IMG/VR virus record: IMGVR_UViG_3300032214_000550
Coordinates: 1 to 42,295 of that record
Reading direction: 5' to 3' (one strand)
Length of the DNA stretch: 42,295 bases
From: a virus
The notes below the pieces were generated by a model that saw only the letters and a list, made by a program, of their open reading frames with translations, searched no databases and was not told the origin of the DNA. Within the stretch, counting starts at the first letter, position 1. Each line of letters begins with the position of its first letter. Made by a program: the position numbers and the translations under genes. Below, piece after piece: positions 4,231-39,014 of the stretch.

Positions 4231-5268
4231 ATGGCAACCTCGACTACAGCGTCCGGCATGGGCGCGCTCGACTCTTACTTCCGCACCTTGGCAACCGAGC
4301 AGGCCGAGCAGGTCATGCGCGCATCCAAGGGCGGCACCGCAGACCGCGCGAGCGTGCGCGCCGAGGTCGATGCGCTGGCCGCTGAGATGAAGGCGGCATT
4401 GCTGAGCGGTGCGGCTCTCGGTCATGCGCGCCCGACTCCGGTCTTGGTCTCTGGCTCGTTCGTGATGACCAGCAGCGCCAAGGCTCTCCAGCAGCGGCTT
4501 GGCGTTGCAGGGAAGGCCGGCAAGCTCGCGGTGCTCATGAGCGGGCCGTCCGGCTCGGGCAAGACCTATGTGGCCGAGCAGGTGCTCGCGGCTGCGGGCC
4601 GCACGGTATACAGCGCTGAGATCTCGGACAGCACCACGCTCTCGGACTTGCTCGTGCGCCCGACAGTGACAGGCCCCAGCGCGCTGGGTTGGTCGGAGGG
4701 TCCGGCACTGCGCGCAGCGCGTGAGGGCGCGGCGCTCATCCTCGACGAGTTCGATCTTGCCTCCCCTCGTCTCATGGGCGGGCTTCACTCGTTGCTCGAC
4801 ACGGGGCGTGTGCGCCTGCTCTCGGGCGAGGTCGTGCAGGCGGCGCGTGGCTTTGTGTGCATCCTGACCTGCAACGGCCTGCGCGCGAGCAAGGGCCGCT
4901 ACTCGACGCACCAGATCAGCACGGCGCTGTCCAATCGCTGCATCTTCTTGGCCTGCGACTACCTGAGCGCCGAAGACGAGATCGCGATCCTGTCCAAGTA
5001 CGGGACCGATGCACAGGCGCGCATTGTGCGCGGCGATCTGGAGGCACTGCGCGTGATGTTCGAGGGCGGCACGCTCCAGCACGCCCCGAGCCCGCGCATG
5101 GGCGCGGCAGTGGTCGCGGCACTGGCCGCCGGCATGAACCGCGCAGAGGCGTGGGCGCTGGCGCTCTTGGACGGTCTCGACAAGGCCGCAGCGGCAGAGG
5201 CTGCGCGCGCACTGGCACGCGCCGAGGAACTGCGCCGTGCCGGCGGTGCTCAGGAGGTGACGCTGTGA
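4231..5268 (+). CDS. MoxR/CobS-type AAA ATPase
   Basis: The 345-residue protein is a MoxR-class AAA+ ATPase, a chaperone-like motor that normally works with a VWA protein. Visible elements are Walker A GPSGSGKT (105-112), Walker B LILDEFD (169-175), a sensor-1-like ILTCNG (211-216) and an arginine-finger candidate R236 in ALSNRC. Residues 1-95 form a helical, Ala-rich N-terminal part, and the C-terminal 60 residues are helical. Phage copies are often labelled CobS, but no cobalt-insertion partner is visible and that label should not be taken literally. The ATG at 4231 follows a GACA-rich leader with only a weak Shine-Dalgarno match. The stop overlaps the GTG of the VWA gene as GTGA, a strong sign that the two products act together. 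Confidence 0.85.
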   Translation: MATSTTASGMGALDSYFRTLATEQAEQVMRASKGGTADRASVRAEVDALAAEMKAALLSGAALGHARPTPVLVSGSFVMTSSAKALQQRLGVAGKAGKLAVLMSGPSGSGKTYVAEQVLAAAGRTVYSAEISDSTTLSDLLVRPTVTGPSALGWSEGPALRAAREGAALILDEFDLASPRLMGGLHSLLDTGRVRLLSGEVVQAARGFVCILTCNGLRASKGRYSTHQISTALSNRCIFLACDYLSAEDEIAILSKYGTDAQARIVRGDLEALRVMFEGGTLQHAPSPRMGAAVVAALAAGMNRAEAWALALLDGLDKAAAAEAARALARAEELRRAGGAQEVTL

Positions 5269-9355: not shown

Positions 9356-10787
9356 GGTTCGTGGTGCACCTTCCCAGCTGTGGGACATGTGCCAGAACCC
9401 AGGGGTTGAGAAGGTGAAGGAACTGGTCATTGCTGGTCCTGGTGGTACTGGCAAGAGCCGGGGCATTGGCCACTTCTTGTGGTGGTTCTTGAACAACTAC
9501 CCCATGTCCCGGGTGCTGGTCGTGCGCAAGACCAGGGTGTCGTTGTCAGAGGCGTTCTTGAAGACCTGGGAACAGGATGTGGTTCCACCTGGCCACGAGA
9601 TCCTGAACGGGCCACAAAGGGCGCATCGGCAATCCTGGAAACTGGAGAACGGCTCGGAGATGGCCACCGGTGGGCTGGATAATCCGACCAGGCTGTACTC
9701 CACAGACTGGGACATCATCTATGTCCAAGAGTGCACAGAGCTGACAGAGGACGAGTGGGAGCGGCTGCGGCGTGGTCTTCGTAACTGGAAGTCGCCGACC
9801 CAGTTCCTGATGGGTGACTGCAACCCAGAGAGCGAGAGACACTGGCTATATCGCCGGTTCTTGGACGGCAGAACAACGCGCCTGGACAGCAAGCACGCTG
9901 ACAATCCCAAGTGGTTCTCTGCGACCAAGAACGAGTGGACCCCCGAGGGAGTGGCCTATATCCAGAACCTGGCCAGGCTAACAGGTGTGCGCAAGCGCAG
10001 GCTGTTGTTCGGCGAGTGGGTCTCGTCCGAGGGCGCTGTGTGGGAAGAGTGGGACGATTCCAGAAACCTGGTAGACCGTCCTGTTGGCAACTCGATGATG
10101 ATCATGGACCGGCTCGACATCCGCTGGACCTTTGCCAGCATGGACTGGGGCTACACAGCAGCTGGCGTGCTCCAGATCTGGGGAGTAGATGGAGAACGGT
10201 GTATGTACCTGTTGAAAGAGTACTACATGGCTGGCCAGCAGCTGGAATGGTGGGGCGAGAAGGTGGTCAAGTCCTGGATCGACTACAAGCTCCAGGCCAT
10301 TGTCGCTGACCCGTCTAGACCAGATGCGATCAAGCTGGTGAACGACAAGCTCAATGACTCAGGGGCACCGCGACTGGTCCGGGCAGCGAACAATCGCCGA
10401 ACAACCATTGGCGGTGACCTGGGCGGACTAGACCTGGTGCGCGAGAAGATCCGGCCCGATCCCAAGACCGGCAAGGCCTCGTTGTTCATTGTCAGAGATG
10501 CTCTCGACACCCGGGATCCCAACTTGCACGAGAAGGGATTGCCATGCTCAACCGTAGAAGAGATTCCCGGGTATGTGTATGCACAAGGCGAGCACGGAAG
10601 ACTAGACACAGAAAAGACTGATCCAATGTGCTCGGATCACGGCTGCGATGCGTTACGATATGCCGTAACCTTCTTGCACAAGCGCGACATGACACCCGAG
10701 ACTGATGAAAAGCGCGGTGCATCTGTCACATGGGGACAGGTGCTTGGTCATGATGAGGTTTGGGAGAAGTCCAAGGACAGTCACTGA
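9333..10787 (+). CDS. terL: terminase large subunit
   Basis: The 484-residue packaging motor has both expected domains. The ATPase holds Walker A GPGGTGKS (35-42), an adenine-region VVRKTR, Walker B DIIYVQECTEL with catalytic E133, and the coupling motif GDCNP (161-165). The RNase-H-like nuclease has D271 in MDWGYT, D326 in IVADPSRP and a final acidic SDHGCDALRYA near 455. The ATG overlaps the small subunit gene, with GGAG (9322-9325) seven bases upstream. Length is normal for the family. It threads DNA into the prohead through the portal encoded immediately downstream. Confidence 0.95.
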   Translation: MTTQQKVEVRGAPSQLWDMCQNPGVEKVKELVIAGPGGTGKSRGIGHFLWWFLNNYPMSRVLVVRKTRVSLSEAFLKTWEQDVVPPGHEILNGPQRAHRQSWKLENGSEMATGGLDNPTRLYSTDWDIIYVQECTELTEDEWERLRRGLRNWKSPTQFLMGDCNPESERHWLYRRFLDGRTTRLDSKHADNPKWFSATKNEWTPEGVAYIQNLARLTGVRKRRLLFGEWVSSEGAVWEEWDDSRNLVDRPVGNSMMIMDRLDIRWTFASMDWGYTAAGVLQIWGVDGERCMYLLKEYYMAGQQLEWWGEKVVKSWIDYKLQAIVADPSRPDAIKLVNDKLNDSGAPRLVRAANNRRTTIGGDLGGLDLVREKIRPDPKTGKASLFIVRDALDTRDPNLHEKGLPCSTVEEIPGYVYAQGEHGRLDTEKTDPMCSDHGCDALRYAVTFLHKRDMTPETDEKRGASVTWGQVLGHDEVWEKSKDSH

Positions 10788-22985: not shown

Positions 22986-23935
22986 CGGTCAATCCCAGTG
23001 GTCGTCGCGGCCAGGCATCTAGATCTGTATCGCTTGGCGCGTCTGATCCTCGTGCTCGCCGTGCCCCGCAAGAGGCGCTTACTGACCTAGACCTGGAGTC
23101 GCCCTTAAAGATCAACCGCAGCGGCCAGATCAGCCTAGACCTGTCTGGTGCGCTGACTGTCAACCCAGACGGCTCCATCGGCATCAATGTCAGCAATGGC
23201 ATCACCGTTGCCCCCGGCTCTCCACTGTCAATCCAGCTTGACATCGACGACGACAGCCTTGTGATTGGCCCCAACAAGAAGGTTCGCGCCCGCCCGCGCA
23301 TGAGCCAGATTGTTGTGGACAGGCGCGATGTGCGCGAGGTCACTGGCCGCAACCTAGCCGAGGTCATTGATCAAGAGACAGAGCTTCTCAAGCGCAAGGG
23401 CGCTGCTGATGGCTACTGCGAGCTGGATTCATCATCTAAGGTCCCGGTTGCTAGGGTGCCGTTTGATCTAATCCCGCTGTCTATCAAACTTTCTTCAATC
23501 AATGACCCAACCTATAACCATATTATTCTTAGGTTTGATGATTCGGGGACAAGCGCTGCCGTTAACTACCTTGGTGTAGTAAACTCTGACGCGGGCTTGC
23601 CTGTTATTTTTAAGTCTGACGGAGCAGATGCCGACGTCGGCATTGAGATTACAACCAAGGGCCTTGGGGTCTTGACAGTCAACGGCAGCGCAGTGGAGTT
23701 TGCTGCCAACAAAAACATTGCTGGTGGATATGCTGGGCTAGACGGGTCTTCCAAGGTTTCGCCAGCCCAGCTTCCCCTGTTCACTAGCATTGCAGACGGC
23801 GCTGTATCTGCGAGCGGCGGCGGTACAACCAACTTCCTTCGCGCAGACGGATCATGGGCTGCGCCCGGCGGTGGTGGCGGCGGTGGACTCAGCCAAGCCA
23901 ACGCGCTAGCCATCGCATCGTTTGGGAGCTTCTGA
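22982..23935 (+). CDS. tail fibre protein
   Basis: A 317-residue fibre starting at a GTG inside the previous stop (GTGA). The N-terminus (1-60) is basic and could attach to the tail. Residues 50-95 have repeated beta strands (SGALTVNPDGSIGINVSNG). Two copies of a fibre repeat are seen: GAADGYCELDSSSKVPVARVP (from about 140, quoted in part) and IAGGYAGLDGSSKVSPAQLP (about 245). The end has FLRADGSWAAP and a glycine run, a common fibre terminus. DNA between about 23460 and 23720, encoding the segment between repeats, has a lower GC content and different codon choice, as if exchanged. A receptor-binding or fibre-shaft role follows from these patterns. Confidence 0.75.
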   Translation: MTVNPSGRRGQASRSVSLGASDPRARRAPQEALTDLDLESPLKINRSGQISLDLSGALTVNPDGSIGINVSNGITVAPGSPLSIQLDIDDDSLVIGPNKKVRARPRMSQIVVDRRDVREVTGRNLAEVIDQETELLKRKGAADGYCELDSSSKVPVARVPFDLIPLSIKLSSINDPTYNHIILRFDDSGTSAAVNYLGVVNSDAGLPVIFKSDGADADVGIEITTKGLGVLTVNGSAVEFAANKNIAGGYAGLDGSSKVSPAQLPLFTSIADGAVSASGGGTTNFLRADGSWAAPGGGGGGGLSQANALAIASFGSF

Positions 23936-25122
23936 TGGCAATCACACTCGACGCAACGACCAAGTCTATCGACCTCACGACTAGCTCTACTGCTGACATC
24001 GACTATGCAGTGTCGTGGGTAGACGCGACGACTACGGTGTTCACGCCGGGCGATGGGCACGGCACGATCAACACGGCGACAACTACTGTTATCGTAGCTG
24101 CCCCTGCGGCTAGCACGCAGCGTGGCGTGAAGTCGATCTCAGTGTTCAACCGTCATGCGACTACGACCAACACCGTGACCGTGAAGAAGGATGTAAGCGG
24201 CACGGAGTACATCCTGTTTAAGGCTGTGCTCATGGCTGGCGAGTCGCTGCAATGGAATGACGGCAGCGAGTGGTGCGTGTACGACGCAACGGGCGACAAG
24301 AAGGTGAACAGCCCTGTCAACACGGGCATTACTGGTCGTGTGATCCCGATCAACAAGGTCGGTACTGCGACCGAGGGCACGGCGTACTGGTACTCGTTCA
24401 GCAAGGACGCTGGCTTCACAGGCGCGTGGTCACCCGGCACGCCGGGCCTCAACGGTCGAGCAACAGACGGCATGACTGCTGCGGACAACGGTGCGCTGCC
24501 CTTGTGGACGCCTACGGGGTCGCTCTACATCACAGAGACGGCGGCGACCACGACCACGCTCTGCACGATCATGCTGGCCGATGTCGTGTGGACTAACTCG
24601 GGCATCGTGGTGACGACTACCACGGCTCAGGCGATTACCAGCCCGACCTTCCCTGCGCGTGACCTGAACGGCAGCACGGACGGCGAGGGCTATGTCATCG
24701 GATTGTGCACCACCACGGCTAATACGAACGCTGCTGCAATCAGCAACGCTACGGTCAGCTACACGAACTCGGCTGGCACGGCGGGTCGCACGGCAACGCT
24801 GCTGGCTGTGGCTGGTGACCAGATCCCGCCGACCCCCGTGATCGGAACCGTGGTGTGGTTCCGGTTGGCTGCTGGCGACAAGGGCGTGCGCTCGATCCAG
24901 TCCATCACGCTAGGCACTTCGCTGGTAGCTGGAGCTGTGTCGTTGTGCGTAGCCCGACCGCTGACTGTATTGTCCTGCACGCAGGTCAATGTTGCTACGC
25001 CCCGTAACTACAGCGATCCCGGCATCCGCATCTACACGGGGTCGGTGATCATCCCCTTCATCAAGAACACCAGCTCCTCGGCGGTCACGCTGACGGGCCA
25101 TGTCGTCGTGACGGAGCGCTGA
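23935..25122 (+). CDS. tail fibre-associated adhesin (putative)
   Basis: The 395-residue protein is Thr/Ala-rich and mostly beta. Residues about 20-125 (YAVSWVDATTTVFTPGDG, TTTVIVAAPAASTQRGVKSI, VTVKKDVSGTEYILF, LMAGESLQWNDGSEW) match a domain widespread in phage fibre and baseplate-periphery proteins. The rest (about 140-395) is a distinct beta-rich part with an aromatic AYWYSFSKDAGFTGAW start, and looks like a receptor-binding or tip domain. The ATG overlaps the fibre stop (TGATG). Codons favour ACG and ACT for Thr more than in neighbours, which hints at separate acquisition. No catalytic residues are obvious. Confidence 0.6.
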   Translation: MAITLDATTKSIDLTTSSTADIDYAVSWVDATTTVFTPGDGHGTINTATTTVIVAAPAASTQRGVKSISVFNRHATTTNTVTVKKDVSGTEYILFKAVLMAGESLQWNDGSEWCVYDATGDKKVNSPVNTGITGRVIPINKVGTATEGTAYWYSFSKDAGFTGAWSPGTPGLNGRATDGMTAADNGALPLWTPTGSLYITETAATTTTLCTIMLADVVWTNSGIVVTTTTAQAITSPTFPARDLNGSTDGEGYVIGLCTTTANTNAAAISNATVSYTNSAGTAGRTATLLAVAGDQIPPTPVIGTVVWFRLAAGDKGVRSIQSITLGTSLVAGAVSLCVARPLTVLSCTQVNVATPRNYSDPGIRIYTGSVIIPFIKNTSSSAVTLTGHVVVTER

Positions 25123-25124
25123 TC

Positions 25125-25505
25125 ATGCCGACCTACGACTTCGGTGACGGTGCTGGCCCTGTTGCTGCACACCAACACGCCAACGGCGGTGGCTGGGTTG
25201 CTGACACGGCAGTCGTGGATGATGCCGTGCGGATCGACGCTAGCGCCAAGGTCTACGGCAACGCATGGGTGGTGGACGACGCCTGGGTCTACGAGAACTC
25301 CGTTGTCCGAGGCGACGCATGGGTAGGGCACGAGTCGCAAGTGTTCGGCAACTCAACCGTAGAAGGCACAGCCAGGGTAGATGGCGAGTCGCGCGTGTAC
25401 GACAGCGCCATTGTCCGTGGGGCTAGCGAACTGTATGGCTGCACCTTTATTGGTGGAAGCCAGATCGTAGAAGACGAAATCCTGCACGACGAGAAAAGAA
25501 GCTAA
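25125..25505 (+). CDS. hexapeptide-like left-handed beta-helix protein
   Basis: The 126-residue protein begins with a HANGGGWVADTAVV motif often seen at the start of phage hexapeptide-repeat proteins. Residues about 24-110 then carry short repeats with small hydrophobic residues every six positions (AKVYGNAWVVDDAWVYENS, VVRGDAWVGHESQVFGNS, TVEGTARVDGESRVYDS). This fits a left-handed beta-helix, a stiff rod or trimer-forming fold. It follows the adhesin by 2 nt and is probably a fibre accessory or virion component; an enzyme role is unlikely because no active-site insert is seen. Confidence 0.7.
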   Translation: MPTYDFGDGAGPVAAHQHANGGGWVADTAVVDDAVRIDASAKVYGNAWVVDDAWVYENSVVRGDAWVGHESQVFGNSTVEGTARVDGESRVYDSAIVRGASELYGCTFIGGSQIVEDEILHDEKRS

Positions 25506-25519
25506 GGTAATATACAAAC

Positions 25520-26101
25520 ATGCTTGGAGGAGGCGGATCATCACTGTGGTCTAAGGGTGAAAAGAGACAGGCTCTTGGCTATCAAGCCTTTGCTCAAAAG
25601 CGAGCGGAGCTGTTAAACAAACAAGCTGGCACAGCCATGGACAAGGGCTTCTCAGATGCCCTTGCACAAAGCCAGCGAGGAGCAGAGCGGGCCCGGGCCA
25701 GTGTCTTGCAAATGGGCCAGGCTGGGCAAGGAGCTGCACAGGCAAGCGCCATGGGGCGAGGCCTGAGCGGCACCACGGTGCAGGACAACTTGGCGCGGAT
25801 GAGTCGCAGCGACACGGCCAATCAGCTTTCGGGGCTAGAAGCTGCTCTTGCCGAACGGTATGGCGCTATCTCTGCGGGCCGTGGACAGGCCAAGGCTGCT
25901 AGCCTAGGGCAGCTTGCGGCCATGTACCCGCAGTTTGCCCAGATGCGCACAGCTACGCTGCAAGCCCCGACCAAGCAGAAGAGCAATGTGTTTGGCCAGG
26001 TTGTTGGTGCTCTTGGTGGCAAGTTCCTGGGTGCCTTGACCGGTGGCCTTGGCGAAGGCATTGCCGGTGGCCTGACAGATGATATGTTCCAGGGAAAGTA
26101 G
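25520..26101 (+). CDS. internal virion protein, zero-frame product of a likely frameshift gene
   Basis: The zero-frame product has 193 residues. Its first 35 residues are mixed; the middle is a long Ala/Gln/Arg-rich helix (about 45-140); the end is a Gly/Ala-rich amphipathic part (VVGALGGKFLGALTGGLGEG) that could insert in a membrane. This layout and its place before two large proteins resemble the small internal core proteins that podoviruses eject with DNA. TAATAT ends six bases before the ATG, and AAGG is 12 bases upstream. The last codons form the slippery heptamer G GGA AAG immediately before TAG, so a longer form is likely made by -1 frameshifting. Function is inferred. Confidence 0.65.
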   Translation: MLGGGGSSLWSKGEKRQALGYQAFAQKRAELLNKQAGTAMDKGFSDALAQSQRGAERARASVLQMGQAGQGAAQASAMGRGLSGTTVQDNLARMSRSDTANQLSGLEAALAERYGAISAGRGQAKAASLGQLAAMYPQFAQMRTATLQAPTKQKSNVFGQVVGALGGKFLGALTGGLGEGIAGGLTDDMFQGK

Positions 26102-26184
26102 TTAGCTCCGGCGGTGGATCATCTGCCGGGGCTTCCTACCAACACCTGAATCCGTACGAGCAAAACGCTGGCACATTCGCGTAA
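26092..26184 (+). other. programmed -1 frameshift signal and 28-codon extension
   Basis: GGGAAAG (26092-26098) is read as G GGA AAG in the zero frame, the canonical X XXY YYZ slip site and the same heptamer used for the phage lambda G/GT frameshift. After five bases comes a nine-pair stem, AGCTCCGGC (26104-26112) with GCCGGGGCT (26125-26133), one G-U pair and a 12-nt loop. Slipping back one base bypasses the TAG and adds 28 residues, Ser/Gly-rich then PYEQNAGTFA, ending at TAA 26182-26184 just before the next Shine-Dalgarno sequence. The extended protein would have 221 residues. It also explains why this 92-nt gap is left in an otherwise packed operon. Confidence 0.75.
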
Positions 26185-26193
26185 GGACTGACA

Positions 26194-28746
26194 ATGCCTG
26201 TTAAGTACGACAACTCTTCCAATGGCAACGGCGGTGGTGATGCGTTCCTGGCTGGATTCCTTGGCGGAGTCATGGAGTCAGGGGAGAATGTTTGGAGCAA
26301 TCTTCAGCGCAAGAGAAAAGAAGATCGCGATTACCAGCTACAGGTAGACAAGTTCGAGGAGGACAAGAAGTACGCCAAGACCGCAGAAGAGCGGGCAGTG
26401 GCGCAAGATGAGTACAACAAGTGGGTCCGCGAGCAGGCAAAGGCAAAGACTGCTGCCGACGAAGCTCGCAACAAAACCATTCAGGGCCGCGAAGACATTG
26501 AGTGGGGGCAATCTCAGAAAGACCGCGCGCGTGTAGAGGACTTGCAGGCCAAACAAGATGCGGCTATCGAGGCCGGGCAAGAGGCCGAAAGCTACGGGGC
26601 TGGCTTGCCGGTACAACGCCCCCAGCTGATGCAGCAGTACGACGAGGGCGTTCAGCGGGCAGAAGCAGACGCCGAAATGTCAGGCTTTGCTTTGGACGCT
26701 GCTGCTGCGTCTCCCCTGTCCAATGCCTTTGGATGGGCCAACCAAGAAATGGCCGACGAGCTGAAGACTCGAGTTGCCCGAGTCTACAGCAACGAAGCGG
26801 CTGATCGCTTTTCCACGGTGCTGGCTGGCGTACGCCAAGATGCCGCTATTAAGGTCCAAAACATTGCCAAGCAGAATCCCGCTGCTGCGGCAAGCCTAGC
26901 TGCGGCTGTAGAGACAGAGTTCGTCAAGATCCAGGACGAGATGGAGAAGCGGGTCGCAAAAAAGGAAGTAGATGGATTTGACAAGCAGCCGTGGGCCAAC
27001 ACCGAGTTTGGCCAGTCCATCCTAGGTGAAGTTGCTAATGCACGGGCGACAGGCCAGGACCCACGAGAGATTGTTAAACTGGTTAACACCAAGCGCCAAG
27101 AGCGCGCTGCCCAGCTTAGCAATCTACAAAGAATCAATACCGTTAGAGCGGCTGTTGAGCGCGGGATTCAATTCTATACCAACCAGTCGGGCTTGAGCGG
27201 AGCATATGCAGCAGATCGAATTGCAGCTGACAACAAAGGCGCCAGGTTGCAAGCCTTAATGATTGATCTCGAAACAGCAAGCTTTGATGACCTAGGAAGA
27301 ATCGTCAAGGAATACAAGGAGATCACCGGAAGCACTGGACTTCCTGGCTTTGACGAGCAGGCCAAGTTCGTCAAAGACATGGCCGGACTTTCCACGAAAA
27401 CGGAGACACCGGACCCGACCACGCCAGGAGCGGTTATCACCACAGAGACACCCGTGTTCTCTAGTGAAGAGGTTCGCGCTGCCGCCCTCGGAGTTCAGGC
27501 TAGAAACATGGGGATCCCCAATCCTGATCCTGGAAGCAACGACCCTGTCTACAACACCCGCCCCGCCCAAGAGTCGCTTGGCATTCCTGCTATGCCGAAC
27601 GAGTCTGGTGCGCTTGGTCGCGCGGTTGGAGCCCTTAGCCTTGACGACCGCAGAAAGTGGTCTGATGCTGGTCGCCCGATTACTTGGGATGGCAAGCCTG
27701 CCCTTCCCAGGCCTGATGGCAAGGTTTACACCGCTGGGTACCAGGTTGTCAGAGACCAGAATTTAAACAACGGAAGGTGGACTCTTATCCCGACCGTCTG
27801 GGACGGAAGGCCTGTTGACCCCAAAGAAGCAACCAAGCGGGCAATTAAGCATCTCAAGGACAACCCAGAAGCGACATTCGAAAACCCTGGACTTGATGGG
27901 GATAAATACAACCCGCAACTAGCGCTCAAGGATTTGCTTGATCGCCAGCAGTTTGAGGAACAAAAAGAACGCTCGCAGGGCGCGAGAGAGATGGTTGAAG
28001 GCCGTGGCCGAAAAGTAGAACGGTCTAAGCCCACCGCTGGAGGAGCTAACGCCCCTTCTGCGCCTAAGTCCAATCCAGCCCAGGCTGCTCCCCAGGCGCA
28101 GGCCAAGCCGCAGGCGCAAGCCGCTCCTCAGCCTCCCCGCACAACTGGATCTGCAAGAGCCGACCTGGTCGAAGCTACTCTTCGCAACCAACCTACAGAT
28201 GGAAGATCTGTTGAGGGCGCAGGCAAGTACTCGTTTACTGCTGGGGTAGAGGGTTACCTTGGGTCGTTTAGCAATCAAACAGGCCCTATCGCAGCCCAGA
28301 TTGCCGCATTAGAGAAACAACTTTCGGCAACACCCAAGACTGATGCTGAAGCGGAACAACAGGCAAGCTACCGCAGGCAGCTGGAAAAACTCAAGTCCGC
28401 CCTAGCCCAGGGGACGGCTTACAAAACCACGGACGCTGGCAAGAACCTGTTTAAGTCTGCTCAGTCTGCCGAGGCCATGATTAACGAGCTAATGAAGGCA
28501 GCTTCTGCTAGCGGCGGATTTTACGAAAAGGCTATTCGCGAGCTCAAAGGCCTTCCCGCTCAGCCATCGACACCGGAAGAGGTCGCTGCCTGGAGAAAGT
28601 ATTTACAAGCTAATTTTGGCGACGATTTGGGCACGCCCCGGGCCCCTGGAGATGTCGGCTTGCGGGCTCGGCGAATTGCAGCTGAAGCAGATCGTGCCCT
28701 TGGCGAATTGTACGAAGGCTTGAACGCAGGCGTTGGAGGTTCATGA
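26194..28746 (+). CDS. large internal virion protein (putative)
   Basis: The 850-residue protein starts at ATG 26194 with AAGGA six bases upstream. It has a Gly-rich N-terminus (NGGGDAFLAGFLGGVME), a strongly charged coiled-coil region (about 35-125), further helical sequence to about 430, and a small recognisable module near 520-590 (GRWTLIPTVWDGRPVDPKEA...AIKHLKDNP), a pattern seen in several phage internal proteins. A Pro/Ala/Gln-rich linker follows (about 605-650), then helical C-terminal sequence. I see no lysozyme or transglycosylase signature. Its stop overlaps the giant gene's ATG (ATGA). Composition and position support an ejected core protein. Confidence 0.6.
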   Translation: MPVKYDNSSNGNGGGDAFLAGFLGGVMESGENVWSNLQRKRKEDRDYQLQVDKFEEDKKYAKTAEERAVAQDEYNKWVREQAKAKTAADEARNKTIQGREDIEWGQSQKDRARVEDLQAKQDAAIEAGQEAESYGAGLPVQRPQLMQQYDEGVQRAEADAEMSGFALDAAAASPLSNAFGWANQEMADELKTRVARVYSNEAADRFSTVLAGVRQDAAIKVQNIAKQNPAAAASLAAAVETEFVKIQDEMEKRVAKKEVDGFDKQPWANTEFGQSILGEVANARATGQDPREIVKLVNTKRQERAAQLSNLQRINTVRAAVERGIQFYTNQSGLSGAYAADRIAADNKGARLQALMIDLETASFDDLGRIVKEYKEITGSTGLPGFDEQAKFVKDMAGLSTKTETPDPTTPGAVITTETPVFSSEEVRAAALGVQARNMGIPNPDPGSNDPVYNTRPAQESLGIPAMPNESGALGRAVGALSLDDRRKWSDAGRPITWDGKPALPRPDGKVYTAGYQVVRDQNLNNGRWTLIPTVWDGRPVDPKEATKRAIKHLKDNPEATFENPGLDGDKYNPQLALKDLLDRQQFEEQKERSQGAREMVEGRGRKVERSKPTAGGANAPSAPKSNPAQAAPQAQAKPQAQAAPQPPRTTGSARADLVEATLRNQPTDGRSVEGAGKYSFTAGVEGYLGSFSNQTGPIAAQIAALEKQLSATPKTDAEAEQQASYRRQLEKLKSALAQGTAYKTTDAGKNLFKSAQSAEAMINELMKAASASGGFYEKAIRELKGLPAQPSTPEEVAAWRKYLQANFGDDLGTPRAPGDVGLRARRIAAEADRALGELYEGLNAGVGGS

Positions 28747-31700
28747 CGATGGCAATGCAGGACCCGAATAATCAGTCGTGGTGGTCGCAGTACAAAACAC
28801 TTGACGACGCGTATGCGGCTGGGCCGGATGTGTACAAGAATGTGCTCGACACCTACAAGGCGCTCAGCCGCGCCGATGTTGACGACGAGCTAATTCGTGG
28901 AACTGCAAGCCGCCTTGGGTACGCCCCCGTTGCCAAGAACGAGGGCGGGCAACTTGAAGACCTAAGCGACATGATCAAGTCGCGATCTTCTGCGACTGGC
29001 ATGGAGCTGACCCAGGACTATGCCGCCACCTTAGCGCGTGGGTTTGCTGGAGTGCCAGGAGACATTGCCGGTCTTCTTGGGTCTATGGCCAGGCCGCTTG
29101 GATACGAGGGCGCGACCGAGTGGGGCGTTGCCTGGCAAGAGGGCGTTAACAGCTTTATCCCGACCTCGAACGAGTACCGCGACACACTGGCTAAAGATGC
29201 CGGGTACGCGACCTCGACCACATTGCAATCGGCTTTTGGCGGCGCTGGCATTGCTAAGACGGCATTTACCGCCGCTCCAAAGCTCGGTGCCATTGGCCGC
29301 ATGGGCATGGCAGGCAGGCAGTTGGCGGCTGCCGAAAAGATGTCTGCGGCCACACAAGCGCTGTCTACAGCTAGAAGCGCAGCGGCCCCCGTATTGTCCG
29401 ATATCGCCAAGGCGCAGGAGGTCTTGTCGCAGGCTCAATCAGCCTATCGTAGCGCCCGCGCTGCTAACATTGCCCGTGCCAGCACATACACTGGCATGGC
29501 CATCGAGGCTGGATCTACGGGCAAAGATGCTTTCCAAAAGGGAGCAGATCCATACACTCAATTGTTTGCAGCAGCCCTGGGAGCGGCTGCTGGATCCACT
29601 GAGTTCATTGCAGGTGAACGGCTGATTCGCAAGATTGTTGATCCTGGCAACCTTGGCAAGTATCGCGATGTTGCCAAGGGCATTGGCCAGCAGATTGGCG
29701 GCGAGATCCTTGAAGAAGAGATCGCGGCGGTTCCGTCCGCGCTGGCCCAGTACCTGACAGAAGATCAAGGGCGCTCCTACATGGACCTTCTGAAGCAAAA
29801 CATGCTTCAGTCCGCCCAGGTAACGCCATTGGCCGTGCTTCCGTTCTCTGCTGTGTACGGTGTTCGTGCGAGCCAGATGGTTCGTCGCAACAAGCAGTTC
29901 GTCAGAGAGGTCGAGAATGTCACCAAGAATGCTGGTGCGTTCGTTGACCCGAACGTGCCCCTTGGCCTGAAGCTAGATGTTGTAGAAAAGCGGCTCCCTG
30001 AGATCGCTGCCGCTAACGACCTAGAGACACTGGCAGAGGTGGTTGGCCTGTCCAAGATGATGGGCGCGCCAGTGCACCTGTCGTCTGCCGCAACAGAGCG
30101 TGTCAAGACAATCGCAGAGCGCCTTGCTGCCCGGGGATTGCGGGTTGTCTTTGTCCAGCCCACTGTGGACAAGGACGGCAATTTCGACACAACCGACATT
30201 GCTGGCATTGACCCGTCGTTTGCCCCTCGCCCCGACATGGCCCCTGGGGATGTGGCTGGATACTACGACCCGGCGTCCGCGACTGTGTACATCAACACTG
30301 CCCAGCCTGAGGCAGTTCAGATCATGCAAGGCCTGGTGCACGAGACAGTGCACGACCTAGGCGAGACACACCCTGGCGGCATTGCTGGTGTGGCGAACAT
30401 GCTTGACCAGGTGTTCCCTGGCACATTCCGGAACTACATGGGCGCTGTTGCGAACATGTATGCAAAGGACTGGGCCAAGCTGACACCAGAGCAACAGCAG
30501 CACGCTCTCAACAGCGAGGGTGTTGCAACCTTTGTGTCTCAGGGCCTGGCAGGGTTCATGGGCATGGCAATGACCAATCGCGAGATGCTGTCGCGCATTG
30601 GCTACCAAGACCCGGGCATCATGTTCGACCTTGCGCAATCGGTCTTGTCTGTGTTGCGCATCCAGCCTCAGTCGTTCACCCAACGCGAGCAAGCAATCCT
30701 GTCTAGCCGACTGGCCAGCCTTGCCCGTGTTGTTGCGCCCACTGTTTCGTTCGAGGGCGACAAGGGCGCTGATGTCGATGGCATCATGGGCGCGCGCGTA
30801 GCCTCAGAGCTTTACCGCCTGCTGAACGAGCACCTGGATCTCACAGGTCGGACCGTGGATGTTGCTGTCAACATGCCCGAGGGCGGAGACCTACAGACAG
30901 AGCTTCAGTCTGTGATGGGCATGAAGCCTGAAGAGGCCGCGCGTGTTGCATCGGACGTTGCCCGGCGCGAGAAGATTGTCAACATCCTGAAAGAGCGCAG
31001 GGGCCTGGGGAAGCCTGTGCCGAAGGAGACCGAGACAAAGGCAGAGGAGGTCCCGCCGCCCTCCACCAGTTCTACCACCGGTGCACCTCCCGAAGAGGAG
31101 GCGAAGCCCACTGACCCGACAGCTGTAAATGCTGCGGAGAATGTCAAGCTAGCCCAGCGGCTAGAGCCGTTCATCGAGTCGCTGAAAGAAGAGCAGCGCC
31201 AGAACCAAGCATCTGGCACCACAGACCAGCAGCTAGATGATCTGATCGCCTTGTCCGAAGACTTGCTTAGCACAGTCACCCAGGACGAGACCGCTGACCA
31301 GGCTGGGTTCGAGCAAGACTTCCAAGAGCTGCAAGGCATGCGCCCTGCTCGTGCTGCTGCCCCTACAGCCCCTGCAACAGGCACAGCGCCCGAGACTGGG
31401 TCAACAGAGCCGACATGGAAACGCCGCCAACGCGAGCGCGCTGCACGGCGCAATGCCGCCAACCGGGCTAAGAACGAGGCCCGTCGTGCACAGGCAGCGC
31501 CTGTCGAGGCTGTTGAGCCTGAGGCCCCTGTGGAGGCCGCAGAGCCTACCGCACCGGTAGAGGCGACAACCAAGCCTTCTGAGCCCACAAAGCCTGGCAA
31601 AGAGCAGCAGGGCACGCTCCCTGGTTTCTTTAGCGCACGCATCACAGCAGAGGCCCTGGAGAAGGCAGTTGCCGAGGGCTCGATCAAGGTTGGCACCAAG

Positions 31701-34700
31701 AAGCTGACAGTGTGGAGCCAGTGGCAACAGTTTGCCCAACGGTTCAATGACACCCTCCAGAAGCTGAACTACGCAGAGTTCCGTGCTGTTGGTGAGTGGA
31801 ACAAGCTGCCCGAGGCGCGCAAGAAGGCGATCATCAAGCGCAACCTGAAGGCGATCAAGGCTGCTGCTGACCAGGCTGCTCAAGACATCCTGCCCTGGAT
31901 CAAGAACAACCGGGCATTGCAAGGCTACTACGCAGACGACCTCAAGTTGGTCAACATGCTGTGGCAGCAGATCTATGGCGACAAGTTCACCCAAGACCAC
32001 CTAGACCTGTTCCAGGTTGTGTCTGCAATTCTGTCTCCGTCTACCAAGCTGCGCGGCAACATCGACGAGGCCTCGCGTGTGTTGACAAACTACATGTCAA
32101 CCGGCGACTTCGGTGTCGAGACCGATCCGTACGCCTTTGTGAACGAGAAGGGAACCGAGACCCTCAAGTTCCGCTTCTCTGTGGCCCGCTCGGCAGTGTC
32201 CATCTCTGGCACGACAGCGTCTAGCAAGGCACGCTCGCTCACGATCTTGCGCGACATGATCGAGGATGCTGGTGGTCTAGAGAAACTAAAGGCCCACCTG
32301 CTTGAGCCTGTGAGCCTCAAGGAGTACGCGGATCTTCGTTTCCGCCACGGATTCAAGGGCCTGGGATCGCTTGCGTCTATTCGCCAGGTTGTTGGCGCGG
32401 CCACTGGCCAGAAGATTGGCACAGGCAAGAACGACACCATGATGTACCCCCGGGCCATGATGTTTGGCCCCAAGGTGGGAGCGTACTTGCTGAACTCCTT
32501 GGGCGACAGCCGCTACCAAACGGTAGACATCTGGGAGTCTCGGTTCATTCGCTCGTACTTCGACAAGATCATGTTCATTCGCGATGAGCAGACCAAGGAG
32601 CGCAAGCGTTTGCGCGAGCTGCCCACCGGCCCTGAGTACAAGCTGATGAACATGTTCGCCGCTGAGATGAAGCGGTCACTGGAGGAGCTTAGCGGAGAGA
32701 AGTTCACTGCATCGTCGATGCAGGCTCTGCGCTGGTTCTACATGCTTGAGCTGGCCCGCCGGGCTGGCAACACCAAGGCAACCACAGACGGAACTGTAAG
32801 CGGGTACCTAGATGCAGCTCTCAGCAAATATTATGGACCTGATTACCGCAGTAGCGGACGAGGCCTTCCTCAAGAGTCTCAAGTATCAGCAACAGAGACA
32901 GAGGCTGAGCGTATTGCAGGCCAAGAAAGGATTGCCGCAGAGCAAGCTGTTGAAGAACAGGACCCAGAGCTCAGCTACGAAGCTCCCAGCGAGCGGCAGG
33001 TTGACGGTGTCAACTCAACCCAGGGGTTCTACTCCCGGCGAGTCGCGGTCGTATCCCCAATCGGGTTCTTCGACAATCTAGACAAGGCCATCAGTTCTGC
33101 GCCGGACTCGTTCGAGACCGAGTCAACGCCCGACCGTGAGGTTCCTGGGCGCGTGGTTGACATTGGCGGTGGCAAGACCAAGGAGATCCCTGGTCGCACG
33201 ATCAAGGGGTCCAAGACCACAGCCTGGAGCAAGCTCATTGCCCACCTGTCCAAGACACCCGGTGCGCTTAAGCAGGCTGTCGAGGTTGGGATGGTCAGGG
33301 ATGTTAATGGGCAGTACGAGACAGGCCCCGGGCTGCGCATGTACTTTGAGTCGCAGAAGCTAGATCCGAACCTCGGGCGTGCTCAAGAAATTGACATGAC
33401 CGACATCGACTCGTTCTGGAACACAACTTTGCTTGGTGTCCAGGGCGGAGCCAAGGCTGTTACGGCCCAGTCTCTCGGGCGGGCAACAACCGAAGTTATT
33501 AGGCCAGATCCGGCAGAGGTTGCTGCGCTCCAGAAGGAAGCGGATGATGCAAAGCAAGAATCCAAGTCGGCGTACAGAGAGTCTCGATTGGACAGCTTTG
33601 GTGGCGTTGCAAGGCAGAACGAGTTTGAAATGTCGTTCCCGCCTGGCCTGCGCGCAGACATGCTTTCAACAATTGAAAGCGTGGCAAAGATCTTAAATGA
33701 TCTAGGCGCTCAGGACGCAAGAGGCTTAGAGAGATTTATTGACCCAAGAGAGCTTAAGCTGCAAAGCATTGTCAGCGACGCAGTGTTGCTGTACGAGCGT
33801 CTTGACCAAGACAGCTCCAGCGGCAAGCTAGAGGATTTCTTTGTCAAGGCATTTAGAAAGGGATACACCAAGGACAAAACAGGGTCTGTTGCTAGGTTTA
33901 TGGACCAGTACAATGGCCTAAACCCTGGGTCTAAGCAGGCTATGCGCTCTCTTTTGTTTAGAGCAGCATTGTCTCCGCGGCCAGACATCTACTTGAGCTT
34001 TGTAAAAAACTCGGCTGAAGCCATTGACGGGGTTGTTGATGCTCTCAAGGCCTTGAACGAAGCGCAGCTGGCTTTGTTTGGCAGAGGTCTTGCAATTTAT
34101 GGAGAGACTGCCGACCAAGGTGGGTTACAAGCATTTGTTGAAGCCCTGCCAGATGGCACCAATCAAGTAGTCTTTAGTGGAAAAAATCCAAACCAGCAAT
34201 CACAGAAATCTGTGGATTTGGATTTCCAGCAGACAAAAGAACAGATGAATGCTTGGGCGACCAATCCGCAGGTCGCAGGAGTTCTTTACAAGCCTTACAC
34301 CCTAACAGGTGAAAGCGCAAAGGGCGAGCTTGGCGGCAGTCCCAATCAAAGTCCTTCCCTGCATGCATACAGAATGATCCAAGCTATGTATGCAGCAGGC
34401 TTTTACCAATCCTTCTCCGACAGAGTTTTCCTGGTCGGAAATGCAACGGGGCCTGGTGTTTACACTGGCGGCAATTTTTCGCTCCACGGCATTGGCGATG
34501 CCATGGTCGAGAACAGCTTGGTTAAAAGCAGGTTTGCGTTTGCTGAGCAGTCTGAAAGACCAGGTGTTTACGACTTCCGAGACATGGCTAGTGCGTATAC
34601 AATTGGGTCTGTCCAGGGAACCGGGATTGGTTTTGCGCTTGATCCCGGCCAAGGCCTGCGGCTTAAAACGTCCTATAGCAAACACACCGTCCTTGACACC

Positions 34701-37700
34701 ATTGTAGATGCATTTGCGCTTGGCGAGGTGCCTACATATATGGCTGGCAGGGCATTTGAAAAAGGATTGAATAGCGATCTGTACGAAAAGTTAGCTAAAT
34801 TCCAGCTCGAAGCGGACAAGCTAAAGGCATCTAATGATGCGCCCAGCCAGGCGTTGGGTCAGGCGCTTGACAACTTAGTTTCCAGGCTCTCATATGTGCA
34901 CGCCCAGGGCTCGTTTGCTGGCACAGATGCAGGCATGGCGCTTTTGGCAAGATTTGCGGCGTACCAAAAAGACTACGCATCTGTTACCGAAAAAGCCGCT
35001 GACAAATACAACAACGCGATTGACAAGATCAAGGCTTTAAAGAAAACAAATGATGTTAGCTACTCTGAGTACTCGATGACTGGAGAAGTTCTTGATTATC
35101 AAGAAGTACACCTTACGCTGTCGCAGCAAAATTCTACTAAGAAATGGTTTGATGGTCATCCAAAGTTTCATTATGCCAAAAACCCTGTTGTGCGCCTAAG
35201 GTTCACAGTCCGTCGTGTATACGATGGGGCCGCGACATCCCACGCCGATGCTGGCCGTGTACTGTTTATCGAAGAAATTCAAAGCCCCCAGTCCATCCCT
35301 GACGAATACAGCGGGCTGAAAAACAGGGCCGAATCACTTGCCTTCCGATATGCGCTCAACTACGCCGCTGCCCAAGGGTACGACTATGTATCAATCACTC
35401 GACCAGAAGACCAGGCCACTAGGTACTGGGGTGAAAGTTCTGTAATCAGAACTGAGCCCGACGACTACGTCCTGTACCAATTCGAAAACGACAACGGAGT
35501 CAGAACCAACAAGATCACGTTTTTTGACGGGGCTGGAAATGTTCTTCGGACATCGGTATGGGACCAAAATCAAGACAGCTCTGAGGCTATTGCATCGCTA
35601 GATCCAAGAATCGCTAAGATCCTGCGAGAGCAGATCAAGGCCAACAAGAACTCGGTCATCGACAGCACCAAATCTGCGTACGAGCTAGAGGCGTACGATA
35701 TCAACGCAGACGGCAAGCACTCGTCCCTTATGGACGGTGCTATCCACAAGACGGCCCTGTCAAGCAATCTCTACAACCGCTATGTTGGCGCACTCGACCG
35801 AATGACACGCGAGATGTCGGGCACTACCGACAAGGTCAAAACTGAGCGCAAATTTATCAATGTCGAGGGACTGTCTTCTCAATGGAAGCCCAGCTCTCGC
35901 GTTGGCCAGCTCGGCATCCAGACTGGCACATCTCGCCTGGTGGACGTTTCCAAGGCTCCGGCCCAGCAACTGGCTATGCCTCGACAGGCTGCGCCGGTTG
36001 AGACTGACCAAACGCCGTATGTGCCTTATGAGATGATCGACATCTCTGGGATCGGCGACAAGATCACCAAGACAGGATTCGGCTTCTACGGGCGCCGCCT
36101 TGATCTGGCGAACGAGATGTTTGTAGACGACATCAATCTCTTGCGCCGCATGGAGGACCAGATCGCGGCCAATGCCCGCACCTATCAGGATGCAGTTGCT
36201 GAGGCTGACGAGATCGAGCGCAGGACCGGTGTGCGCCCTGCGGTCACCACGCCAGTTGCGTTCTACAACCCGAGAACCATGAACTTCGGGCAGATGAGCG
36301 ACCTCTACAAGGGCCGCATCGGCTACTACAACCGCCTTGCAATGGAACAGCGCCAACGCATCTACGATGCACTTGGCACTGGTGTTCCGCTGAGCGCGGC
36401 TGATCGCAGCGCATCCCAGACCGTCTCGGCAGAAGAGTACTTGTACGCCACCCATGCCCAAGAGGCGAACCTGTACCTGTGGCTTGAGCGCAGCGAGATG
36501 ATGTTCAATGAGACCGCTGCTGGGCAACGGGCACGGACAGATGTGGTCAATGCCGAGAATGCGTACAACACGCTTCTTGGCACGCCCGGCGCTAGCCCGG
36601 CTGCTATTGCAGCAGCACAGAACAACCTGTCTGCCATGATTGCTGTGCGCGAGAGCCTGCTCACCGCCTATCGCGGAACGCTGGCTGCTTCCAGTCCTGA
36701 GCTGTTGTCGATGTCTGGCATGACAGACGCCGACGCACGCCGCATCCTGAACGCTGCTGTTTCTGAGCCCTACTATGCACAGCTTCGCGACATCCGCGAT
36801 GCCGTGACACAGATCCAGGATCTCAAGCTCCAGATCATGCAAGTGGGCGGGCTTATTTCAAACCAGACTGCACAAGACTGGGCATCCCGTTACAAGAACT
36901 ACATCCCGCTCAAGACCACCATCCGCGAGCCTGATGGTGCATACGGTGCTGGCACTGGGTTCAGCATCGGAGGGGCCGAGACCCGTCGCCGTCGTGGTCG
37001 TATGTCTGTGGCCGACGACATCCTTGGTCACACACTGGTGGACTTCTCGCACGCCAACTCCCGTGCGATGCGCAACACCGCAGCACAGACAATGCTGCGC
37101 CTGATTGCTGCCAACCCCAACAACCCGACCTTCACCTTCTATGGCCCGGGAGATGCCAACCGTAGACGCATCCCGACCCGCGATGACAATCGAGTGATCT
37201 CTGCCAAGTTCAATGGCGAAGAGCACTACGCTGTCATCAACGATGCCAAGCTCGTAGAGCAGTTCAAGAAGATGGGCCACATCGACCTGGGCAATGCTGC
37301 CGCAGGCGTGGTCATGGCAACGCGAGTGTTCTCGCAGATGCAGACGGCCTGGAACCCGTCATTCATCTTGCCCAACTTCGCCCGTGACTTCATGCTGGCC
37401 ACTGGCCTGATGTACACCGACAACGGTGTGCGCAGTGCCGCGCGCTTGGTGAGGAACATTGTGCCCGCGATCCGCACTGTTCTTGCAGCCGAGCTGGGCA
37501 GGACCAGGGCTGGCCAAACCCGACTTGGTGGTGGCCTGGTGTCGAGACTCGGCAGCGGTCGATTCGCAGCCGAGCTGGCCGAGATGGAGCAGCTAGGTAC
37601 GTTCGTTGCCTATACCGACTACCAGAGCGTGGAAGAGTACATGGCCGCGATGCGCACACTCTCCGAGGCTATGCGCTATTCGGTCGGCAGGCGCGCGATC

Positions 37701-39014
37701 CAGGCCGGGGAGTCGTATGTGCGCCCTGTGCTTGAGCTGGTAACAGCATCTAATGCCATTGCCGAGCGGGCCACTCGTCTTGCTGCCTATGTCGAGTACC
37801 GTCAACAAGGACTGAGCCGTGTCCAAGCTGCGGCAGGTGCCAAGAACCTGACAGTCAACTTTGATCGCAAGGGAACAGCAGGCACTGCTCTCAATGGACT
37901 GTATGCGTTCTACAACCCCAACGTCCAAGGCACAGCCAACCTGTTGCGCAGGCTTGGCCCCAATGCTCGTCCCGAGCAGCGCCGCCGCCTGATGTCGCTG
38001 ATCGGTATCTTGGCCGCATATGGGTTCTCCCAAGGCCTGATCAACCGTGCGATTGCTGGTGACGACGACGAGGGCGAAAACGCCTACCGTGGCAAGATGC
38101 AGGAGGCTGACGAGAAATCCCGCAACACTGTCATGGTCCTGATCCCGGACGGCGATGGCGAATCCATCGACATCCCGTTGCCCTGGGGCCTCAATGTGGC
38201 CTTCTATGCTGGCAGCATTATGGAGCGTTTCATGGCCGACGACATCACAGCCATGGAGGCCATCAATAACCTGGCCGGTGCGTTCGTTGGCAGCTTCTCG
38301 CCAATCCAAGGATCAACCCTTGCACAGGCTGCTGTTCCCACTGTGGCCAAGCCGTTCGCAGAGATCGAGCTGAACATGAAGTGGAACGGGCAGAATGTTA
38401 TGCCCCCTGTTGATCCGTACGACAGGACTCCCATGCCCGACAGCCACCGGCACTTTGCCACTGTCGGGGCTATTCCCAAGTGGGTTTCCTACACGCTCAA
38501 CGAGGTCACTGGTGGCACCGAGCGTACGCCCGGTGCGATTGATATCTCGCCGGAAACGATTGAGCACATGGCCGAGTTCATGACCGGCGGCGTTGGCCGC
38601 TTCTGGACATCTGCCTTGGGTTGGTCGTGGTTCAACCGCGAGCCCGAGAAGCGCACCTTCAAGGACCTGCCCCTGGGCATCGGTGCTGTTGGTGGCCGCT
38701 TCTATACCCAGCCTGACAAGGAGCGCCGCACCCAGTCTGAGTACTTCGACAACATGAAGAAGATGGCGTTGTTGAAAGAGGACTACCAAGACACGCGCAC
38801 CAGGCAAGATGCTCTAAAGGACCCGACGATTAGGCTCATTGGTGCCGCCAAAGACTTCGAGTCTATTGTTCGCAAGCTCCGCCAAGCAGAAAAGGCTCAG
38901 CTCGCTGCTGGCAACGATGAGAGGGCCAAGGCCATGGCAAAACTTCGGGTTGAAAAGATGCAGAAGTTCAACCAACTGTACAATGCGACCATCAAGAAGG
39001 CAGAGTCTAAGTAG
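28743..39014 (+). CDS. giant polyvalent virion protein with metzincin-type zinc site
   Basis: One uninterrupted frame encodes 3423 residues. It resembles the large polyvalent proteins of phages and conjugative elements, thought to enter the host with the DNA. Parts seen: an Ala-rich helical start (1-350). A zincin motif HETVHDLGETH (H533, E534, H537, H543), the extended HExxHxxGxxH form. A Pro/Glu/Ala linker (about 870-956). A domain with VGAYLLNSLGDSRYQTVDIW near 1259. A module with WSKLIAHLSKTPGALKQAVE (about 1500). A domain with QEVHLTL and RVLFIEEIQS (about 2120-2190). An LPD38-like C-terminal region with ILPNFARDFMLATG (about 2872) and NLTVNFDRKGTAG (about 3035). DNA at about 33560-35130 is poorer in GC. 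No RNA polymerase motifs are seen. Confidence 0.75.
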   Translation: MTMAMQDPNNQSWWSQYKTLDDAYAAGPDVYKNVLDTYKALSRADVDDELIRGTASRLGYAPVAKNEGGQLEDLSDMIKSRSSATGMELTQDYAATLARGFAGVPGDIAGLLGSMARPLGYEGATEWGVAWQEGVNSFIPTSNEYRDTLAKDAGYATSTTLQSAFGGAGIAKTAFTAAPKLGAIGRMGMAGRQLAAAEKMSAATQALSTARSAAAPVLSDIAKAQEVLSQAQSAYRSARAANIARASTYTGMAIEAGSTGKDAFQKGADPYTQLFAAALGAAAGSTEFIAGERLIRKIVDPGNLGKYRDVAKGIGQQIGGEILEEEIAAVPSALAQYLTEDQGRSYMDLLKQNMLQSAQVTPLAVLPFSAVYGVRASQMVRRNKQFVREVENVTKNAGAFVDPNVPLGLKLDVVEKRLPEIAAANDLETLAEVVGLSKMMGAPVHLSSAATERVKTIAERLAARGLRVVFVQPTVDKDGNFDTTDIAGIDPSFAPRPDMAPGDVAGYYDPASATVYINTAQPEAVQIMQGLVHETVHDLGETHPGGIAGVANMLDQVFPGTFRNYMGAVANMYAKDWAKLTPEQQQHALNSEGVATFVSQGLAGFMGMAMTNREMLSRIGYQDPGIMFDLAQSVLSVLRIQPQSFTQREQAILSSRLASLARVVAPTVSFEGDKGADVDGIMGARVASELYRLLNEHLDLTGRTVDVAVNMPEGGDLQTELQSVMGMKPEEAARVASDVARREKIVNILKERRGLGKPVPKETETKAEEVPPPSTSSTTGAPPEEEAKPTDPTAVNAAENVKLAQRLEPFIESLKEEQRQNQASGTTDQQLDDLIALSEDLLSTVTQDETADQAGFEQDFQELQGMRPARAAAPTAPATGTAPETGSTEPTWKRRQRERAARRNAANRAKNEARRAQAAPVEAVEPEAPVEAAEPTAPVEATTKPSEPTKPGKEQQGTLPGFFSARITAEALEKAVAEGSIKVGTKKLTVWSQWQQFAQRFNDTLQKLNYAEFRAVGEWNKLPEARKKAIIKRNLKAIKAAADQAAQDILPWIKNNRALQGYYADDLKLVNMLWQQIYGDKFTQDHLDLFQVVSAILSPSTKLRGNIDEASRVLTNYMSTGDFGVETDPYAFVNEKGTETLKFRFSVARSAVSISGTTASSKARSLTILRDMIEDAGGLEKLKAHLLEPVSLKEYADLRFRHGFKGLGSLASIRQVVGAATGQKIGTGKNDTMMYPRAMMFGPKVGAYLLNSLGDSRYQTVDIWESRFIRSYFDKIMFIRDEQTKERKRLRELPTGPEYKLMNMFAAEMKRSLEELSGEKFTASSMQALRWFYMLELARRAGNTKATTDGTVSGYLDAALSKYYGPDYRSSGRGLPQESQVSATETEAERIAGQERIAAEQAVEEQDPELSYEAPSERQVDGVNSTQGFYSRRVAVVSPIGFFDNLDKAISSAPDSFETESTPDREVPGRVVDIGGGKTKEIPGRTIKGSKTTAWSKLIAHLSKTPGALKQAVEVGMVRDVNGQYETGPGLRMYFESQKLDPNLGRAQEIDMTDIDSFWNTTLLGVQGGAKAVTAQSLGRATTEVIRPDPAEVAALQKEADDAKQESKSAYRESRLDSFGGVARQNEFEMSFPPGLRADMLSTIESVAKILNDLGAQDARGLERFIDPRELKLQSIVSDAVLLYERLDQDSSSGKLEDFFVKAFRKGYTKDKTGSVARFMDQYNGLNPGSKQAMRSLLFRAALSPRPDIYLSFVKNSAEAIDGVVDALKALNEAQLALFGRGLAIYGETADQGGLQAFVEALPDGTNQVVFSGKNPNQQSQKSVDLDFQQTKEQMNAWATNPQVAGVLYKPYTLTGESAKGELGGSPNQSPSLHAYRMIQAMYAAGFYQSFSDRVFLVGNATGPGVYTGGNFSLHGIGDAMVENSLVKSRFAFAEQSERPGVYDFRDMASAYTIGSVQGTGIGFALDPGQGLRLKTSYSKHTVLDTIVDAFALGEVPTYMAGRAFEKGLNSDLYEKLAKFQLEADKLKASNDAPSQALGQALDNLVSRLSYVHAQGSFAGTDAGMALLARFAAYQKDYASVTEKAADKYNNAIDKIKALKKTNDVSYSEYSMTGEVLDYQEVHLTLSQQNSTKKWFDGHPKFHYAKNPVVRLRFTVRRVYDGAATSHADAGRVLFIEEIQSPQSIPDEYSGLKNRAESLAFRYALNYAAAQGYDYVSITRPEDQATRYWGESSVIRTEPDDYVLYQFENDNGVRTNKITFFDGAGNVLRTSVWDQNQDSSEAIASLDPRIAKILREQIKANKNSVIDSTKSAYELEAYDINADGKHSSLMDGAIHKTALSSNLYNRYVGALDRMTREMSGTTDKVKTERKFINVEGLSSQWKPSSRVGQLGIQTGTSRLVDVSKAPAQQLAMPRQAAPVETDQTPYVPYEMIDISGIGDKITKTGFGFYGRRLDLANEMFVDDINLLRRMEDQIAANARTYQDAVAEADEIERRTGVRPAVTTPVAFYNPRTMNFGQMSDLYKGRIGYYNRLAMEQRQRIYDALGTGVPLSAADRSASQTVSAEEYLYATHAQEANLYLWLERSEMMFNETAAGQRARTDVVNAENAYNTLLGTPGASPAAIAAAQNNLSAMIAVRESLLTAYRGTLAASSPELLSMSGMTDADARRILNAAVSEPYYAQLRDIRDAVTQIQDLKLQIMQVGGLISNQTAQDWASRYKNYIPLKTTIREPDGAYGAGTGFSIGGAETRRRRGRMSVADDILGHTLVDFSHANSRAMRNTAAQTMLRLIAANPNNPTFTFYGPGDANRRRIPTRDDNRVISAKFNGEEHYAVINDAKLVEQFKKMGHIDLGNAAAGVVMATRVFSQMQTAWNPSFILPNFARDFMLATGLMYTDNGVRSAARLVRNIVPAIRTVLAAELGRTRAGQTRLGGGLVSRLGSGRFAAELAEMEQLGTFVAYTDYQSVEEYMAAMRTLSEAMRYSVGRRAIQAGESYVRPVLELVTASNAIAERATRLAAYVEYRQQGLSRVQAAAGAKNLTVNFDRKGTAGTALNGLYAFYNPNVQGTANLLRRLGPNARPEQRRRLMSLIGILAAYGFSQGLINRAIAGDDDEGENAYRGKMQEADEKSRNTVMVLIPDGDGESIDIPLPWGLNVAFYAGSIMERFMADDITAMEAINNLAGAFVGSFSPIQGSTLAQAAVPTVAKPFAEIELNMKWNGQNVMPPVDPYDRTPMPDSHRHFATVGAIPKWVSYTLNEVTGGTERTPGAIDISPETIEHMAEFMTGGVGRFWTSALGWSWFNREPEKRTFKDLPLGIGAVGGRFYTQPDKERRTQSEYFDNMKKMALLKEDYQDTRTRQDALKDPTIRLIGAAKDFESIVRKLRQAEKAQLAAGNDERAKAMAKLRVEKMQKFNQLYNATIKKAESK

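Follow-up and report, generated by a model that had tools for sequence, protein, structure and literature searches.

A T7 gp14-like ejection-protein gene of a marine phage lineage ends in a probable programmed −1 frameshift site

Frameshifting by −1 at the heptamer G GGA AAG, a sequence that is highly shift-prone in E. coli (PMC5009743), is described for tail-chaperone and capsid genes of phages. In the lambda gene pair G/GT, which makes a tail chaperone and is followed by the tape measure gene, the site reads GCG GGA AAG (heptamer at lambda 10109–10115). In phiEco32-like podophages (Kuravirus, Privateer), a −1 slip at GGGAAAG gives a longer minor capsid protein, and the corresponding bands and peptides have been detected in virions (PMC7881722, PMC9965538). 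T7 gene 10A/10B is another podovirus structural gene in which, as cited in PMC5009743 and PMC7881722, a −1 slip produces a C-terminally extended minor form. The T7 protein relevant to the present locus is gp14 (internal virion protein B), which has about 196 aa and opens the gp14–gp15–gp16 run.

The locus considered here lies in a 42-kb virus record from IMG/VR, the whole of which was analysed and is referred to as the window. Its heptamer and phase are identical to those of lambda G/GT, as the initial annotation had stated. In contrast to lambda, where the zero frame runs some codons past the slip, the zero frame of the window meets a stop immediately, and gp15- and gp16-like genes come next. 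Membership of the lambda G/GT-type tail chaperones, which precede a tape measure gene in long-tailed phages, was considered and rejected, since the downstream genes encode proteins of 850 and 3423 aa in the gp15 and gp16 positions, the latter carrying LPD38 and having kin among giant proteins of podovirus type. The phiEco32-like phages are likewise short-tailed, and their GGGAAAG also lies towards the 3′ end of a gene for a virion protein, but there it is the major capsid gene that is extended (from 353 to 892 aa in YF01), whereas here a gp14-like protein would gain a tail of 28–35 aa. T7 gene 10 resembles the predicted arrangement in yielding a major form and a C-terminally extended minor one by −1 slippage. 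It differs in being a capsid gene, in having G_GU in the X_XX position, and in relying on a distant CCCC sequence more than 200 nt downstream rather than on a close hairpin (PMC5009743). T7 gene 14 itself ends in GGG AGG TAA, without a slippery heptamer, and its next gene follows 6 nt on. Slippage at this heptamer outside tail chaperones, and slippage in virion genes of podoviruses, are thus already known. The open-access literature yielded no frameshifting in internal virion or ejection proteins, and, within that literature, what would be new is the use of the site in an ejection-protein gene.

The gene in question occupies positions 25520–26101 of the plus strand and encodes, in frame 0, a protein of 193 aa. 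It ends in ...TTC CAG GGA AAG TAG, with the stop codon at 26099–26101. The heptamer (26092–26098, plus strand) belongs to the X XXY YYZ class and is in the correct phase for a −1 slip; it supplies the last two sense codons, GGA for the P site and AAG for the A site, with TAG next. Among the 10,115 codons of the window's late module, an in-phase G GGA AAG occurs once, at the end of this gene. The 92-nt gap that follows is the largest of the late module, in which the other gaps are of 24 nt or less. The reading of the open reading frames thus agrees with the initial annotation, both in placing the heptamer in the right phase directly before TAG and in pointing to an otherwise unexplained gap.

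A distinct, collinear marine phage contig of 35.4 kb, IMGVR_UViG_3300017766_001853 (IMG/VR 3300017766_001853; hereafter G002), was the single close relative available. Most of the head, tail and small late genes that it shares with the window are 60–90% identical, several others 35–58%, and its homolog of the 193-aa protein is 77% identical. This homolog ends in GCG GGA AAG TAG, with GGGAAAGTAG at the matching place and the heptamer unchanged, and G002 likewise has an in-phase G GGA AAG only once in 8,343 codons, at the end of this gene. Comparison with related phages had been proposed as a check, and G002 retains the heptamer, the TAG, the spacer, a hairpin, and a gene-like −1 frame that lacks a start codon. 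An independent phage that keeps all parts of the signal backs the frameshift reading.

In the window, the −1 frame (26098–26184, plus strand) comprises 28 codons and a TAA at 26182–26184, and translates to VVSSGGGSSAGASYQHLNPYEQNAGTFA*. The predicted trans-frame product has 221 aa and a calculated mass of 22.4 kDa, compared with 19.7 kDa for the 193-aa form. These lengths and coordinates match the 28-residue extension, ending at a TAA before the next gene, that had been proposed at the outset. Nine nucleotides separate the TAA from the next ATG (26194). In G002 the open −1 frame spans 35 codons, and 10 nt lie between its stop and the next gene. No ATG, GTG or TTG was found between the preceding stop and the end of the −1 frame in either phage, which rules out either frame as a separate gene with a conventional start codon. 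The chance that both −1 frames would be free of stops is about 0.13. To score codon usage, codon frequencies were taken from the large genes of the phage concerned. By this measure both extensions resemble genuine genes, ranking at the 24th and 27th percentile of coding segments. They score below only 64–76% of in-frame segments and above 98.7–100% of the off-frame segments that lack stops; base shuffles kept free of stops match their scores with p = 0.006 and 0.0003. No amino-acid similarity between the two extensions (28 and 35 aa) was detectable, with p about 0.2 in global alignment. Both are rich in Gly, Ser and Ala at first and polar thereafter, and for this reason the C-terminal tail is probably flexible. 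A further reading, in which the extension would bring the protein up to the family's full length, was dropped, as alignment shows that the 0-frame product already carries a C-terminal tail of the usual length.

A 5-nt spacer (TAG + TT, 26099–26103, plus strand) separates the slip site from a putative stimulatory hairpin at 26104–26133 of the same strand, which folding predicts to have arms at 26104–26114 and 26123–26133 and a loop at 26115–26122. Its minimum free energy is −23.5 kcal/mol (z −4.86), and none of 200 shuffles folded equally well. Stems with 9 bp or more, seven or more of them GC, that begin 4–8 nt in were found in 10 of 3000 random 48-mers from the window. The initial annotation had described a GC-rich stem of nine pairs five bases on; the spacing is as described, but 11 contiguous pairs are predicted. 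In G002 the spacer has the same length (TAG + CC) and is followed by a 9-bp hairpin (L107 5043–5075), so in both phages the arrangement lies within the 5–9 nt spacing expected of −1 sites. The outer nine pairs are AGCUCCGGC/GCCGGGGCU in the window and GCCUCCGGU/GCCGGAGGC in the relative. Pair changes were counted by hand from both sequences, because MAFFT introduces gaps into the 3′ arm. Among the nine aligned pairs, two are changed on both sides (A-U/G-C and G-C/C-G) and two more on one side only, with pairing kept throughout. These compensatory changes hint at selection on the structure, in a comparison of two sequences, a number that does not lend itself to a statistical test of covariation.

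The 193-aa protein is called gp14-like here for its position, its size and a probable fold rather than for proven homology. The run of 193-, 850- and 3423-aa genes resembles the T7 order gp14–gp15–gp16. At 193 aa the first product falls within the range reported for gp14-like proteins (181–240 aa; PMC8954989), and its size and its place at the head of the run therefore agree with gp14, whereas the gp16 sizes given in the same source fall far short of 3423 aa. At the sequence level, the Pfam family PF24072 (T7_gp14, cut-off 27 bits) had no match to the window protein and matched the G002 protein below the cut-off (17.7 bits, E 0.0036); hhalign of the family profile against T7 gp14 gave no significant match. 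The AlphaFold2 model, of moderate confidence (mean pLDDT 62.5), consists of two long helices forming a helical hairpin and a C-terminal helix. Foldseek superposed it on T7 gp14 chains 8e4g_a (TM 0.82 by target, rmsd 2.5) and 7ey7_A (TM 0.68), in both cases with a non-significant E-value of about 5, and other helical proteins ranked above these chains by E-value. Many BFVD matches are named internal virion protein, with weak E-values. The label of internal virion protein given earlier is thus reasonable on gene order, sizes and superposition, although membership at the sequence level is weak.

Further relatives were reached only through the terminase, the 126-aa gene, and the C-terminal part of a 1692-aa protein. 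The conserved C-terminal part of the last led to distant homologs in seven further lineages, at 17–27% identity. Their gp14-like genes end in frame-0 C-terminal tails of variable length, and in none of the seven lineages does the heptamer stand at the gene end, so the signal is particular to the lineage formed by the window and G002. Conservation of the site and its structure is accordingly confined to the one close relative and absent from the distant homologs, and it does not extend to the amino acids of the extension. Nine other terminase relatives (L002, L004–L011) gave no match, four of them being fragments without the gene. Among isolated phages, tblastn with the 193-aa, 850-aa and L124 proteins found no homologs, nor did blastn, and direct scans of viral contigs with the 193- and 850-aa proteins had no matches. 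The DNA pattern of heptamer, TAG and CTCCGG occurs in nine contigs, of which G002 was the one compared. No further relative carrying the signal was found in IMG/VR or GTDB genomes, and its known carriers number two.

On this evidence, the 3′ end of the gp14-like gene very probably carries a working programmed −1 frameshift site. By analogy with the established X XXY YYZ mechanism, ribosomes decoding ...GGA AAG would be held by the hairpin 5 nt downstream, pausing while the P site holds GGA, the A site holds AAG, and TAG comes next. The two tRNAs would then re-pair simultaneously one base back, from GGA to GGG and from AAG to AAA, so that TAG would be bypassed and 28 further codons read up to the TAA at 26182. 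Most ribosomes would stop at TAG and release the 193-aa form, while a minority would make the 221-aa form with its C-terminal tail. Slippage on AAG depends on the lysine tRNA of the host; a tRNA scan of the window found none. We infer that slippage would occur at a useful rate, that both forms would enter the virion core and be ejected, and that the minor form would adjust the assembly of the core or pore. Any specific role for the tail is proposed with much less confidence than the frameshift site itself.

What the slip achieves could also be a matter of translation. It may be that slippage brings a set fraction of ribosomes close to the gp15-like start and so sets the ratio of gp14-like to gp15-like protein, the amino acids of the extension being irrelevant. 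Such frameshift-dependent translational coupling is possible but rather doubtful. It is consistent with the short distance (9 nt in the window and 10 nt in G002) between the extension stop and the next ATG, and with the distant homologs, in every one of which the gp14-like gene itself ends 3–25 nt before the next ATG. The differences in sequence and length between the two extension peptides, and the weak Shine-Dalgarno-like stretch of the next gene in G002, also favour it. The 850-aa gene of the window, however, comes with its own good Shine-Dalgarno-like sequence, TAAGGA. The gene-like codon usage of the extensions speaks against coupling as well, though any translated codons would be selected in this way. 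Coupling and a tailed isoform may operate together, and a minor tailed form and the delivery of ribosomes to a stop 9–10 nt before the gp15-like start are possible as compatible consequences. On balance, there is a modest leaning towards a marine short-tailed lineage with two forms of the gp14-like outer-membrane pore (ejectosome) protein, in which a fixed minority of the core and pore subunits is tailed or slippage meters translation of the next ejection protein.

Explanations that dispense with slippage have to account for the same features in both phages. The −1 frame might be the decaying remnant of an ancestral tail that was cut off by the TAG or by an indel, next to a coincidental heptamer; the variable frame-0 tails of the distant homologs and the lack of amino-acid conservation in the extension would fit. 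Yet this is very unlikely, given that the −1 frame is open and gene-like in both phages at 77% protein identity, and that the exact heptamer and a re-pairing hairpin recur at equal spacing. The hairpin might instead have nothing to do with slippage and act within an intergenic gap as a transcription terminator or an RNA-processing element, as could be expected of a GC-rich hairpin right after a stop codon. A scan of the region for intrinsic terminators, however, found no T-run and no terminator-like site, and an Rfam scan had no match. The gap also looks like coding sequence in the −1 frame, and in each phage exactly 5 nt separate the hairpin from the heptamer. This reading is very unlikely indeed, though RNase processing at the hairpin may occur. 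An error of sequencing or assembly at GGGAAAG could have broken a real single frame, since short runs of G and A are prone to indel errors and both sequences are metagenome assemblies. The identical arrangement, including TAG and hairpin, in two separate assemblies of clearly different phages makes such an error extremely improbable.

If the frameshift reading is true, the gene of an ejection protein would for the first time be shown to use programmed frameshifting. How many gp14 subunits T7 employs is unsettled, with 8–20 copies in the core as against a hexameric pore (PMC8954989), and two deliberate protein lengths would help to tell which gp14 subunits do what. To the tail chaperones, major tail proteins and capsids that have minor isoforms made by frameshifting, the finding would add the ejectosome. 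It would also mean that C-terminal tails of this kind are overlooked by gene callers in metagenomic phages.

Several observations concern the neighbouring genes. The 850-aa gene (26194–28746, plus strand), in the gp15-like position, begins 9 nt past the extension stop, and its product has no family match. The giant gene in the gp16-like position (28743–39014, plus strand) encodes the 3423-aa protein, which has relatives among the giant proteins of phages of Vibrio, Burkholderia and others. Compared with the relative, this protein is 37% identical at the N-terminus and 33–45% near the C-terminus, where LPD38 lies, and its middle is without a match. Possible in-phase slip sites lie far from the ends of both genes: A AAA AAG at 26958–26964 in the 850-aa gene, and A AAA AAC at 34004–34010 in the giant gene. 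Upstream, a two-gene cassette (23935–25505) encodes proteins of about 395 aa (MAITLDATTK...) and 126 aa (M(T/P)TYDFGD...). Across phages L013–L024 these are conserved at 65–93% and 76–80%, respectively, while the flanking genes have diverged much further or are unrelated, a pattern suggestive of a mobile module for adsorption or tail decoration. The ATG listed for 23854–25122 is probably too early, as homologs start at the codon matching 23935 (MAITLDATTK). Elsewhere in the window, 4231–5268 encodes an ATPase-like protein that matches phrog_249 (porphyrin biosynthesis) and is possibly a CobS-type AAA+ protein.
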